From NCBI GenBank assembly GCA_003045895.1, contig PZPC01000004.1:2513-66512 (forward strand): a stretch of 64,000 nucleotides of DNA, read 5' to 3'. Below the pieces are notes generated by a model. That model ran no database searches, had not been told where the DNA came from, and saw nothing but the letters and a program-made list of their open reading frames with translations. The position numbers and the translations under genes were made by a program. Below are positions 46,612 to 64,000 of the stretch, piece after piece. Position 1 is the stretch's first letter. The number at the start of each line of letters is the position of its first letter. Source of the DNA: Bacteroidota bacterium. Its GTDB lineage: Bacteria > Bacteroidota > Bacteroidia > Chitinophagales > Saprospiraceae.

Positions 46612-46912
46612 AGGTGGAAAGGTGTAAGGGTGTAAACGTGTAAGTGCCGGGACAATAAGGTGGTTCTCGCTGCATTATCATAAAGGAAGCGTGCCTTTAG
46701 GTACGCGATATCGGTAGGAAATTGTTTCACCGATTGATTAGCCGTGCCGTAGGTACGGAATAGGCTTGCGTGCTATTGATTTAGATGCCGTACCTACGGC
46801 ACGGGAAGCATACATTTGGCCATTCTCTACCGATATTAAGTACCTACGGCACTTCGCACTTCGCACTTCCCACTTTTACACCTTTCCCCTTTTACACCTT
46901 TCCACCTCTCCC
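46612..46912. repeat. Composite palindromic repeat region between Omp28 and helicase genes
   Basis: Outer arms are TTTACACC-type simple repeats in inverted orientation (46611-46645 and 46868-46912). Inside lie two diverged, inverted copies of a ~70-bp unit with cores GTGCCTTTAGGTAC (46691-46704), GTGCCGTAGGTACGG (46744-46758), their complement at 46788-46804 and GTACCTACGGCAC (46840-46852), each with ATATCGGTAG-like words between. The left copy, preceded by GTGGTTCTCGCTGC, is repeated almost word for word at 63889-64000. The whole region can form a large cruciform. Confidence 0.85.
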
Positions 46913-58740: not shown

Positions 58741-59709
58741 ATGCAACCCGAGAAAAGAGAACATCCCGCCGAGAAAGAAAACCTGCACCCCCGCAGCAAG
58801 CACCGGGAGCGCTACGATTTGCAGCAACTGGTAGCTACCCTGCCCGCGTTCGCGCCCTACGTGAAGGTGAACAACTACGGCGATGAATCCATCGATTTCT
58901 TCGATCCCCAGGCTGTGCGCCTGCTGAACGCCGCCCTGATCAAACACCACTACGGGGTCAACGATTGGGCATTTCCGCCCAACTATCTGTGCCCACCCAT
59001 TCCAGCCCGGGCGGATTACCTGCACTACCTGGCCGACCTGCTGGCCACCAGCAACGGCGGCAAGATTCCCCGCGGGAAAGGTATTATGGGCCTGGACATC
59101 GGCGTCGGGGCCAGTGGAATCTACCCCCTGTTGGGGAGTATGCTCTACGGTTGGTCTTTCGTCGGGACCGATATTGATTCCGTAGCCATTGGTGCGGCCC
59201 GCAAGATCGTGGCTGCCAATCCGACCCTGACCGACAAGATCAGTCTGCGGTTGCAAAAAGACAAAAATGCGATTATCAGGGGGGCCCTGGAGGCGGGGGA
59301 GTATTTTGACTTTGCCATTTGCAATCCGCCTTTCCACGCTTCCGCGGCCGAAGCCCAGGCCCTCGCCCGCCGTAAGCTGAAAAATTTAGGCCGTAAAAAA
59401 GCCGACCAGACGACCCTCAATTTTGGGGGCCAAAGCCACGAACTGTGGTGCGAAGGTGGCGAGGAACGCTTTATCGTGGACATGGTTCGCGAAAGCGCCG
59501 TATTTGCGACCTCCTGTTTCTGGTTTACGAGCCTGGTGGCACAGGAGAGTCATTTACCCGCTATCTACAAGGTGCTGGACAAATTCAAAGCCCACGATGT
59601 CCAAACCATTCCCATGGGGCAGGGCAATAAGACCAGCCGGGTCATCGCCTGGACCTTCCTCAACGACAAGCAGCAGAAAGCCTGGGCAGCGTTGCGGTGG
59701 AAGGGGTGA
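58741..59709 (+). CDS. rlmF: 23S rRNA (adenine1618-N6)-methyltransferase RlmF
   Basis: A 322-residue enzyme. It opens with the RlmF N-terminal HPRSKHRERYDLQQLV, then the AdoMet site GLDIGVGASGIYPLLG and the N6-adenine catalytic motif NPPFHASAAEA; WCEGGEERFIVDMVRES and a C-terminal KTSRVIAWTF are also typical. It methylates A1618 (E. coli numbering) in helix 64-region rRNA before ribosome assembly is complete. Stands alone, 87 bp after the SulP gene; the repeat/MITE region follows. Confidence 0.95.
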   Translation: MQPEKREHPAEKENLHPRSKHRERYDLQQLVATLPAFAPYVKVNNYGDESIDFFDPQAVRLLNAALIKHHYGVNDWAFPPNYLCPPIPARADYLHYLADLLATSNGGKIPRGKGIMGLDIGVGASGIYPLLGSMLYGWSFVGTDIDSVAIGAARKIVAANPTLTDKISLRLQKDKNAIIRGALEAGEYFDFAICNPPFHASAAEAQALARRKLKNLGRKKADQTTLNFGGQSHELWCEGGEERFIVDMVRESAVFATSCFWFTSLVAQESHLPAIYKVLDKFKAHDVQTIPMGQGNKTSRVIAWTFLNDKQQKAWAALRWKG

Positions 59710-59744
59710 CCTGTTTGCCCGGACAGACGACTTATCGGGCGAGG

Positions 59745-60120
59745 GGTGGTAGCGGTAGCCCGACGCAGGAGGGCTAAGAGCGGACGACCCGGTGACCCTG
59801 CGATAGCGGGGGCACGACCCCAGGGCTGTCGAATCTGGAAATATTTAATGCGTTATCGCGATATTTATCCGAAATGGCGCATTCAAGAAAACCCATCCCC
59901 CGCCCACGCTAAAAAGCGTGGCAAGCTCTTTCGCCCACGCTGAAGACGTGGCAGGCGCGAGCCGCCGACGCTGAAGACGTGGCAGGTTGCTGCGCTGTGG
60001 CGCCCATGCTGAAGACGTGGCAGGCGCGAGAACCAACTTTAGAAGAAAACGTTGTTGATCATATTATCTAATTCCAGATTCGACAACCCTAGGGCACGAC
60101 CCCCTAAAAGCCAGGCTTGG
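59745..60120. repeat. Dispersed GC-rich repeat after rlmF, split by a MITE
   Basis: The stretch with GGTAGCGGTAGCCCGACG, GGGCTAAGAGCGG and GCGATAGCGGGGGCACGACC resembles a repeat I recall after many Bacteroidota genes, with words such as TAGCCCGAC and GGGGGCACG. It runs from 59745 to 59821 and resumes at 60104 after the MITE. Its function is unknown. Confidence 0.55.
59822..60091. mobile_element. 270-bp MITE-like element with 12-bp target duplication and internal hairpin array
   Basis: Ends AGGGCTGTCGAATCTGGAA (59822-59840) and TTCCAGATTCGACAACCCT (60072-60090) are inverted repeats with one mismatch over 19 bp. GGGCACGACCCC flanks both sides (59810-59821 and 60092-60103). Inside are four ~30-35 bp units, three sharing GCTGAAGACGTGGCAGG and a first one of type CCCACGCTAAAAAGCGTGGC, each able to form a small hairpin. 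No coding capacity. Termini start AGGGCT as in the element at 48343-48500, and the duplication is 11-12 bp in both. Confidence 0.85.
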
Positions 60121-60136
60121 CGCTTGGTTGCAGACC

Positions 60137-60176
60137 AAAAAAAAGAGGCTGTCTCATGCTCTTGAGACAGCCTCTT
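60137..60176 (-). terminator. Intrinsic terminator of the sigma/DUF4097 operon
   Basis: A 14-bp perfect stem (60143-60156 with 60163-60176) around TGCTCT, followed on the minus strand by a run of Us (60137-60144). It lies 58 bp after the DUF4097 stop codon. Confidence 0.9.
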
Positions 60177-60233
60177 CTTTAGAGACATACCAGGTCGTAT
60201 TGCCCGGTGAATTCCAGGCTCCTAGCCAGGCGC

Positions 60234-61370
60234 TTAGTTCTTAGCCACCGTAATTCCACCGTAGCTCATGTGGGCGATGATGGTGCTCTTACCGCCGCTG
60301 CCCATGGTGCCACGTACCTGGTGGGAATTGCCATTCTGAGCGTCGTAGCTGGTGGTGACCCCCGACGAAGGCAGGCGAATATCGGCATAGTTGCCCGTCA
60401 GGTCCAACGTACAAGCAACCCCGTTGCCCATGTAGAGCTTAAAATCGGTATAGCGGCCATTGAGGTTGATCTCGCTGAAGCCAGCGTCCACCTGCATGGT
60501 TTTGGCCGATCCGTAGGCCATGTCGAGGCTCAGGCGGCGGGACAGCCGACCAACCTGTACGTTGGTGTAGTGGGTTTCGCAGACGACCTCCTCGGCAAAG
60601 CCAATTTCGACATTGTCGTATTTGCCGTTGTTGCGAAATTCGCGGATTTCACCCAATTTAAAGTTGGAGTAGCGGGATTCGCTGATGATGTCGCCAGCGC
60701 GTTCGACGCCGAAGTTGCCGTAGCGCACATCGATATTGACGTCACTGGCTTCACCCACATCCAGGTTGCCGTAAGCCAGGTTGACGCCCAGGTCGCGGAC
60801 TTTGCGGATGGTGCCGTTGCCGTAGGCCAACTCAATAGAGCTGTCTTCGCCCAGTCCGTCGAGTTTTACGTTACCGTATTTGATCGAAAACTCCCCTTTA
60901 CCAACGATAGCTGCGGCAAAGACGTCGCAGTATTTGGCCATCACTTCCAGGTTGCAACTGGCGGGCATGTACACTTCGTAGTTGATGGAGAATTCGTCAC
61001 TGTTGTTGCCCCAATCCCACCAACTGCTCTTCTTGTCCGCAATTTCGGTCTCGGCACCTACGGAACTCGCTGAGTTGTAGAAATTGATGTTGATGCGATC
61101 GAAGGTAGTTTGGGCGGCAGATTCATCTTTGGCGTTCACCACGATCTTTACCGAGATGCGTACGCTTTTTTGTTCCCAGGTCTTGATGTCGATTTTGCCA
61201 TATTTATTGGACAAATTGACGAGACCATCGGAGGTGATATTAAATTGTTTGTTGATGGTTTTGGAAAACTCCCTGACCGAAGGAGATGTGGCGGCCTTTA
61301 CCTGGCTTACCACCATCAGGGCCACCACCAATAGGCCGCATGTTCGGAGTAGTTTAAATACTGGTTTCAT
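60234..61370 (-). CDS. Secreted DUF4097-type beta-helix protein
   Basis: A 378-residue protein from ATG 61370 (MKPVFKLLRTCGLLVVAL), with a signal peptide cleaved near VKA. The body has repeated strands of the DUF4097 adhesin type: LVNLSNKYGKIDIKTWEQ, FSIKYGNVKLDGLGE, VNLAYGNLDVGEAS, IDVRYGNFGVERAG, with a recurring YGN step, predicted to fold as a right-handed parallel beta-helix. Its ATG overlaps the end of the putative anti-sigma gene, so the three genes sigma, anti-sigma and this form one operon. It may be the surface or periplasmic output, or a sensor input, of that system; which one is not decidable here. Confidence 0.85.
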   Translation of the reverse strand: MKPVFKLLRTCGLLVVALMVVSQVKAATSPSVREFSKTINKQFNITSDGLVNLSNKYGKIDIKTWEQKSVRISVKIVVNAKDESAAQTTFDRININFYNSASSVGAETEIADKKSSWWDWGNNSDEFSINYEVYMPASCNLEVMAKYCDVFAAAIVGKGEFSIKYGNVKLDGLGEDSSIELAYGNGTIRKVRDLGVNLAYGNLDVGEASDVNIDVRYGNFGVERAGDIISESRYSNFKLGEIREFRNNGKYDNVEIGFAEEVVCETHYTNVQVGRLSRRLSLDMAYGSAKTMQVDAGFSEINLNGRYTDFKLYMGNGVACTLDLTGNYADIRLPSSGVTTSYDAQNGNSHQVRGTMGSGGKSTIIAHMSYGGITVAKN

Positions 61371-63888: not shown

Positions 63889-64000
63889 GTGGTTCTCGCT
63901 GCGTGGTATCTCCGCGTAAACATCAGGGAAGCGTGCCTTTAGGTACGCGATATCGGTAGAAAATTGTTTCACCGACGGATTAGCCGTGCCGTAGGTACGG
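63889..64000 (+). repeat. GTGCCGTAGGTACGG repeat, second copy (cut by window end)
   Basis: From GTGGTTCTCGCTGC (63889-63902) through GCGTGCCTTTAGGTACGCG and ATATCGGTAG to GTGCCGTAGGTACGG at the end, this matches 46660-46758 nearly base for base apart from an insertion and a few changes. It continues beyond the window. Confidence 0.85.

Follow-up and report, generated by a model that had tools for sequence, protein, structure and literature searches.

Features of the locus

The element considered here is a non-coding insertion lying between two open reading frames that end at 59709 (+) and 60234 (-) of the window, by which the whole analysed stretch of 64,000 nucleotides from a Saprospiraceae bacterium (Bacteroidota) is meant, and it interrupts a repeat that is itself dispersed in the genome (Table 1). 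Judged by a SulP protein, whose best matches, at 84-87%, belong to uncultured Saprospiraceae, Lewinella and Flavilitoribacter, with differently named MAGs not far behind, the host is probably a member of Saprospiraceae. An earlier note, made from the letters alone, had described it as a MITE-like element with an array of four hairpin units, and its 19-bp inverted termini with one mismatch, its 12-bp flanking direct repeat GGGCACGACCCC and its lack of coding capacity were all found again, no listed ORF of at least 80 aa overlapping the element. The inverted ends sit within a pair of 32-nt arms that are 84% complementary. A search of positions 59600-60300 against Rfam (cmscan, E <=5) gave six matches, all of them below the gathering score and none located before 60091. 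Just past the element, between the convergent ORFs, there is an 18-nt inverted repeat (60139-60180; 94% complementary, with a 6-nt loop), which is perhaps their shared terminator.

Table 1. Features of the element and of its surroundings (positions in the window)
Feature	Position	Strand	Remarks
Host repeat, dispersed, GC-rich and hairpin-rich	59737..59821	+	Resumes at 60092 after the MITE; its terminal GGGGGCACGACCCC is the MITE target
ISAs1-type MITE	59821..60091	+	271 bp in a CAGGG...CCCTG frame; earlier bounds 59822-60091; basic form 207 bp
Left terminal inverted repeat AGGGCTGTCGAATCTGGAA	59822..59840	+	End pairing and end-pattern search
Right terminal inverted repeat	60072..60090	-	One mismatch to the left end
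Target duplication, left copy GGGCACGACCC(C)	59810..59821		
Target duplication, right copy	60092..60103		
U2 hairpin CCACGCTAAAAAGCGTGGCAAGC	59904..59926	+	23 nt; part of the basic MITE; elsewhere seen as a 22-23 nt indel
U1 21-nt unit, site 1 (TTTCGC^YGCGAG)	59935..59955	+	Comparison of empty and filled copies
U1 unit, site 2 (GAGCCG^TTGCTG)	59965..59986	+	22-nt addition; unit proper 59966-59986; folds poorly
U1 unit, site 3 (GTCGC^TGCGAGAACC in empty copies; flank varied here)	60004..60024	+	Folds poorly

The view that the host sequence is a separate dispersed repeat was borne out by further copies of 59737-59821 read elsewhere, namely L056:2767-2861, L118:397-481, L119:441-528, L121:463-550(-), L133:6110-6193 and, in a congener, L122:448-560 (L numbers denote loci and G numbers genomes). 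They have in common a constant core, GGGGTGGTAGCGG..GAGCGGACGACCCGGTG..CACGGCCCC, together with two hairpins that have a different sequence in the congener G003. In eight aligned sequences, one of which (L007) is a row without the 5' part, both-sided change was seen in 2 of 23 predicted pairs, which lends modest support to the impression that the repeat is a structured RNA; compared with Rfam, it gave no match above the curated score.

The earlier note had made its reading depend on further copies of the element and on a clean empty site, and both were found, the latter among paralogous copies. In the own genome (a draft assembly of 5.57 Mb in 161 contigs) 83 pieces match the element, 40 of the 172 first-look candidates having been scored, and since it is thus multi-copy, its inverted repeat is not due to chance. 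The host-repeat copies L118, L119, L120 and L121 keep a single GGGGCACGGCCCC-like end, unduplicated, at the position where the window has its MITE, and in L014 a MITE sits in the same terminal hairpin of a different host-repeat copy. No orthologous empty site was found in the congeners, where the neighbouring genes match but the intergenic stretch does not; in G002 these genes lie far apart, and the pieces of the repeats are matched elsewhere in the congeners.

The transposon shell and its family

The ends of the element are well represented in the own genome: the 14-mer end occurs 35 times exactly and 16 times with one mismatch, which at <=2 mismatches gives a total of 83 against 10 for the reversed pattern, and the 20-mer end at <=2 mismatches occurs 45 times against 0 for the reversed control. 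At least 23 right ends were examined, and 16 pairs of ends lie no more than 1500 nt apart in the fetched loci. Four copies (L011, L013, L014 and L021) are of 207 bp and free of any 21-nt unit, and the others extend from 212 to 1326 bp, the longer ones holding extra hairpins and reiterated blocks, as for example in L051. A left part like TTTAATGCGTTATCGCGATGTTTATCCGAAATGGCGCATTC is common to 12 of the 14 listed pairs, with L058 and L060 as the exceptions, and a different interior with GTGCCGTAGGTACGGCA hairpins lies between the same kind of ends in L055, L056, L057, L060 and L069. Two elements with the paired-GTGCCGTAGGTACGGCA-hairpin interior are also present in the window itself, at 46676-46856 and at 63917-64000, where the second runs past the window, and this interior adjoins the same ISAs1-type ends in L055 and L060. 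A plasmid search with the 207-bp form returned no match.

Flanking duplications, 10-13 nt as matched, accompany 12 of the 17 elements tested, and in three cases they contain 1-2 mismatches; the set comprised 15 elements from the own genome, one from the congener G003 and one from G081, another member of the family, with the L039 pair left out, the right end of L016 shifted by one base, and flanks swapped between elements serving as the control. A duplication score of >=7 was reached by 12/17 elements against 7/272 swapped pairs, and a score of >=9 by 10/17 against 0/272. At the remaining five elements (L009, L013, L026, L032 and L058) no flanking duplication was found. The pattern GGGN5(C/G)CC fits half of the twelve duplications, those of the window, L014, L016, L018, L031 and L240. 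Membership in the IS4/IS231 group, which the GGGN5CCC target had brought into consideration, was dropped once the transposase of G081 had scored as ISAs1; no more than these 6/12 duplications fit.

The same ends delimit a 166-bp MITE in the congener G003 and, in G081, a full element of 1249 bp (L240:272-1520) with the duplication GGGTGATAGCC(T), which encodes a 387-aa protein. The latter matches the NCBIfam ISAs1 model NF033564 with 286.7 bits (cut-off 70), the next model reaching 30.4 (cut-off 180), and in Pfam it comprises DDE_Tnp_1 and its associated domain. The 20-mer end (<=2 mismatches) is found in 5 of 149 family members, with L240 as the only full element, and in the other four the 2-3 kb examined held no second end at a suitable position. 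There were no matches to PF01609 in the own draft assembly, with 9 of 14 control genomes positive, and a tblastn search with the G081 transposase, run without a positive control, had no hit in the own genome or in any of three congeners. The inverted ends, the flanking duplications, the many copies and the full ISAs1 element that carries these ends in another member of the family bear out the identity as a MITE, and it is well supported that the shell is a non-autonomous transposon of the ISAs1 family. The transposase in trans, with matching ends and a duplication of its own, that the earlier note had supposed is upheld as the origin of the shell and is represented by the element in G081, but none was found in the own draft assembly or in the three congeners. 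The present mobility of the MITE is therefore doubtful, and, within what the draft assembly shows, the shell is an orphaned ISAs1 MITE. By what is known of the ISAs1 family, it would have been moved by a DDE transposase acting in trans on the CAGGGCTGTCGAATCTGGAA ends and leaving the flanking duplications.

An ORF beside a near-perfect end in L055 was considered as a transposase and rejected, as it is a gene for a glucosaminidase joined in frame to DNA of the repeat. In this locus (L055:3044-4381) the gene is in frame with the MITE-type repeat upstream, and a 446-aa open frame starts inside the repeat, which is possibly a protein extension, an own ATG further in being also conceivable. In the accessible text of a 2024 review on prokaryotic MITEs (PMC10969869), ISAs1 is not mentioned.

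Hairpin units added to the shell

The consensus of the unit U1 is of 21 nt and reads C(C/A/G)ACGCTGAAGACGTGGCAGG. Four units are indeed present in the window copy, but not as a single array with units of 30-35 bp: the first is a separate 23-nt hairpin (U2) of the basic MITE, and the remaining three are U1 split by backbone stretches, with a start-to-start spacing of 31 and 38. The statement that each unit folds did not hold, as in DNA folding only two of the four beat the shuffles, namely U2 (-7.8 kcal/mol, z -4.6) and the U1 of site 1 (-3.9 kcal/mol, z -1.8), the second (CGACG) and the third (CCATG) U1 being no better than shuffles (z +0.4 each). The 207-bp copies read TTTCGC-CGCGAGCCG-TTGCTGCGCTGCGTCGC-TGCGAGAACC, and at the three hyphens the window has CCACGCTGAAGACGTGGCAGG, C-CGACGCTGAAGACGTGGCAGG and CCATGCTGAAGACGTGGCAGG, with otherwise small differences. 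Two of the three sites are filled with U1 in L009, a CAAG-ended variant of the unit recurs at site 3 in L009, L018 and L023, and apparent 38-bp losses between the site 2 and site 3 units are seen in L010, L020, L027 and L032. The unit lies inside MITE copies with duplications of their own (L010, L016, L018 and the window), and the same backbone is found outside the MITE, both filled and empty, in L017, L019, L029, L033 and L046. Among 23 MITE right ends, a forward U1 was present in 11, reversed units in one (L058), and none in 11, two of them cut by contig ends.

The same unit is present or missing among the copies of a second repeat (L085, L098 and L101, with L039 for one site) at three points: at AAGCTAT^CGTTCCTACGG, where the joint is exact and the 60 letters to its left are identical; at GATGTTT^CGTCCCTCCGG, with an alignment to L039 that extends over no more than about 50 nt; and at ATCTT(C/T)^CGCTCCTACAG, where the 60 letters to the right are identical. 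The first and the third point are about 90 nt apart in L098, so that they amount to one further background, and a count of three unrelated backgrounds besides the backbone was rejected, all three sites belonging to this one repeat. In a third background, TTTTAGACC^GTGTAA of L083, the step is close but inexact, needing 23 nt, and another exception at the edges is the addition at site 2, which needs 22 nt.

In 18 of the 53 isolated units, cutting out the 21-nt U1 and joining its flanks (12+12 letters, <=2 edits in 24) restored a sequence found elsewhere in 305 kb of fetched loci, a result given by none of 300 random cuts and by one of 212 that were displaced by 6 or 9 nt; the other 35 had no empty partner within 2 edits in these 305 kb. 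The 18 restored units fall in few kinds of site, namely sites 1-3 of the MITE/mosaic backbone and the three sites of the second repeat, and single cases could be precise losses, because the filled and the empty sites are paralogous. A catalogue of indels of 12-80 nt between aligned repeats, built without using the unit, contains 127 indels, 74 of them of 21-24 nt; U1 is carried by 29, U2 by 24 and U3 by 19 (72 together), leaving 55 others, and these figures give no genome-wide rate, since redundant registers of one event are included and the loci were picked for the MITE or the unit. Clean indels of the kind seen for U1 also occur for its two relatives, U2 (23 nt) and U3 (24 nt), which have a stem and a tail in common with it.

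Over 93 copies of U1 aligned with their flanks, 20 of the 21 positions hold 1.4-2.0 bits of information, position 2 being lower at 0.81, and positions outside the unit hold 0.1-1.1 bits; the sharpness of the edges is partly built in, because units were picked by likeness to the consensus. In single-linkage clustering of the flanks, one cluster holds 50/93 of the left and one holds 77/93 of the right flanks, and since the flanks are not diverse, recombination between repeats may have copied many of the units. Where the empty site is known, the joints are scarless, the edges near-fixed and the target not duplicated. It is well supported that the three units of the window are copies of U1 added separately, without target duplication, at three points of the 207-bp backbone, and equally well supported that the same U1, with the same edges, has been added at three points of the second, unrelated repeat. 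Probably, then, the element is to be read in two layers, as a MITE shell of the ISAs1 family and U1 units added into its older backbone.

Distribution of the units

In the own genome, U1 occurs at 217 places with <=3 mismatches in 20 (reversed control: 1) and in 193 copies with <=2 mismatches in 21. With the latter threshold no copy was found in three congeners, and 56 other relatives gave a single 2-mismatch place, in one of them; a collection covering 84,980 species, in which the own record or very near ones are possibly not included, gave no exact match to U1. The U2/U3 pattern is present 52 times in the own genome and gave no match in 39 relatives. In 344 kb of the own genome (280 kb taken from two long contigs, plus the window) there are four U1, three of them in the window MITE, which is about a third of the even-spread expectation from 193 copies. 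The lone exact U1 outside the own genome, in a phage-like viral contig of IMG/VR (L238:2681-2701), lies inside an ORF and may be there by chance.

In 400 kb sampled from the congener G002, 165 HSPs showed no indel of 12-80 nt between repeats. A search of G002 and of seven further loci from congeners for five background strings of U1 (<=2 mismatches) found none of them; AAGTCGGAAGTGGGAAGT and GTGTAAAGGTGTAAAAG, two of the modules, are present in G002. In L082-L101, L017, L019 and L033 the intergenic stretches are mosaics in which many small modules recur (AAGTCGGAAGTGGGAAGT, GTGTAAAGGTGTAAAAG and GTCCTCCTTTGGAGGAGG). We tentatively propose, at slightly below an even chance, that within one Bacteroidota species the sister hairpins of 21, 23 and 24 nt are independently mobile, entering intergenic repeats, the carrier transposon included, without target duplication, with about 245 copies (193 of U1, 52 of U2/U3) gained since the split from the congeners. 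With its many copies here and none found in the three congeners, U1 is a candidate for one of the smallest mobile pieces of DNA known.

Folding and possible mode of spread

The U1 consensus folds as DNA with -3.9 and -4.9 kcal/mol on its two strands (z -1.8 and -3.0), which is a modest hairpin, and the CAACG form, like CGACG and CCATG, folds no better than shuffles; such poorly folding forms may be old, decayed copies, or the stem may be less important than supposed. The stems of U2 and U3 are strong (z -5.0 and -3.6), with one compensatory pair between them. If the hairpins are mobile, their mover must read one folded strand, because the units are too short for two separate recognition ends. 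By inference, U1 would spread as a single strand that folds and is inserted at a nick without duplication and, once within the MITE, would travel along whenever the MITE is copied. As the agent, an enzyme of the Y1/HUH class that works in trans, either a RAYT or IS200-like, is ranked first in our judgement, somewhat short of an even chance; template switching at a replication fork is ranked second, as appreciably less likely, and an RNA copy made with a reverse transcriptase third, as slightly less likely again.

Two PF01797 genes are present in the own genome, both beside other hairpins. One, a Y1 gene, adjoins at least seven tandem TCATCCCTACGGGATTC...GTAGGGATGA hairpin units (L067:2101-3390) in what looks like a RAYT-REP locus; the second (L068:1600-2540) is preceded by GGATTGTCGCGGATTGTATCCGCGATACTGTACGCTCAT repeats and followed by a fragment of one, and hairpins similar to these lie, together with five U1, inside the MITE copy L058.

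Alternative explanations

It is unlikely, although worth serious attention, that the hairpins are ordinary REPs moved, in the RAYT-REP manner, by one of the two Y1 (PF01797) proteins of the genome. Both genes adjoin hairpin repeats, and U1 has no target duplication, as Y1 chemistry is expected to leave none; however, no U1 (<=4 mismatches) and no U2 or U3 (<=3) was found in four overlapping loci of 3.2-5.1 kb around both genes (L048, L049, L067 and L068), and neighbouring U1 stand mostly head to tail in the loci read, not in inverted doublets. The ends of U1-U3 are also without the GTAG or CGTC tag that the accessible text of PMC3733652 gives for REPs. The earlier suggestion of recruited REP-like hairpins thus stands for the recruitment, as 21-nt additions to an older backbone that are dispersed outside the MITE as well, but not for the REP tags or the neighbourhood of the gene. 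A rather small probability is given to a U1 that is now immobile, with mosaic repeats swapping blocks by homologous recombination or gene conversion, and with empty sites as precise replication losses. The backbone GCGAGCCGTTGCTGCGCTGCGTCGCTGCGAGAACCAAC, occurring in and out of the MITE both filled and empty, the few clusters of flanks, and the four copies resembling 38-bp losses between two units (L010, L020, L027 and L032) are in line with such an exchange. Against it, the 21 nt also occur, with unchanged edges, at three points of the second repeat, in which no likeness to the backbone is visible, and the flanking direct repeats that a slippage loss normally requires were not seen at the U1 joints.

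That the hairpin cluster is functional, as a protein-binding or RNA element kept for that purpose, we consider improbable. Positions 9-14 of U1 are invariant in 93 copies, picked though these were by likeness, and a compensatory stem difference distinguishes U2 (T-A) from U3 (C-G); yet the low divergence is also explained by a recent spread, two of the three window units fold poorly, and not more than 11 of the 23 right ends carry U1 in the forward direction, the reversed, empty and cut ends making up the remainder. Growth by slippage of a minisatellite inside the MITE, as in BrickBuilt of Porphyromonas gingivalis, is very improbable as a general account. There are tandem 21-bp runs of U1 elsewhere, with five U1 in the MITE copy L058, and these runs may still fit it. 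For the window copy it is disfavoured, as the three units are split by pieces of the 207-bp backbone that the empty copies have joined, and slippage does not place a unit in an unrelated repeat with exact joints. Separate addition of U1 to an older MITE backbone remains the preferred reading of the window copy.

Comparison with known systems

In its ends and flanking duplication the MITE matches the full ISAs1 element of G081, and differs from ISAs1 insertion sequences in being non-coding and in duplications of about 11-12 bp, those of the family being of 8-10 bp. MIC231/IS231 of Bacillus is a non-autonomous cassette with a duplication of 11-12 bp at GGGN5CCC, and the likeness is one of target only, the transposase family and the ends being different. 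According to the accessible text of PMC4596501, BrickBuilt of Porphyromonas gingivalis is a MITE with tandem 23-nt repeats without spacers, IS5-like ends and 19 copies; both are thus intergenic MITEs of Bacteroidota with repeated units of about 20 nt inside, whereas the present one has separate additions with backbone spacers and ISAs1-like ends. With the REP/REPIN-RAYT systems (accessible parts of PMC3116915 and PMC3733652) it shares short dispersed hairpins in families of narrow range, the GTAG and CGTC tags marking the two REP superfamilies, and REP dimers inserted within palindromes being described in the latter source; U1-U3, in contrast, are without these tags, mostly head to tail and away from the PF01797 genes.

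No account of such a hairpin-in-MITE system was found in the literature searched, most subscription journals being beyond its reach. The nearest to U1 in size and behaviour, compared by description, is the SDR of Nostoc punctiforme, which Elhai et al. are said to have reported in 2008 as a hairpin-forming element of 21-27 nt with many copies and a narrow host range, found also inside minitransposons. In the accessible part of PMC4390886, SDR insertion is described as precise, and the 21-nt U1 agrees with this through its empty sites, which are paralogous copies only. The present case differs in the phylum, in that no fixed HIP1-like target was seen, and in having three sister hairpins (21, 23 and 24 nt) with a common stem and tail. 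We know of no such mobile hairpins outside the cyanobacteria, and, if the proposal is true, these would be, as far as is known to us, the first such elements beyond them. How pieces of DNA of about 20 nt multiply has, to our knowledge, been an open question since the Nostoc SDRs, and here a case in another phylum combines many copies, several unit types, exact within-genome empty sites and congeners that yielded no copy of the unit, so that the joint, the target and the enzyme become directly studiable. The case also illustrates that an orphaned MITE can serve as both the vehicle and the archive of smaller elements.
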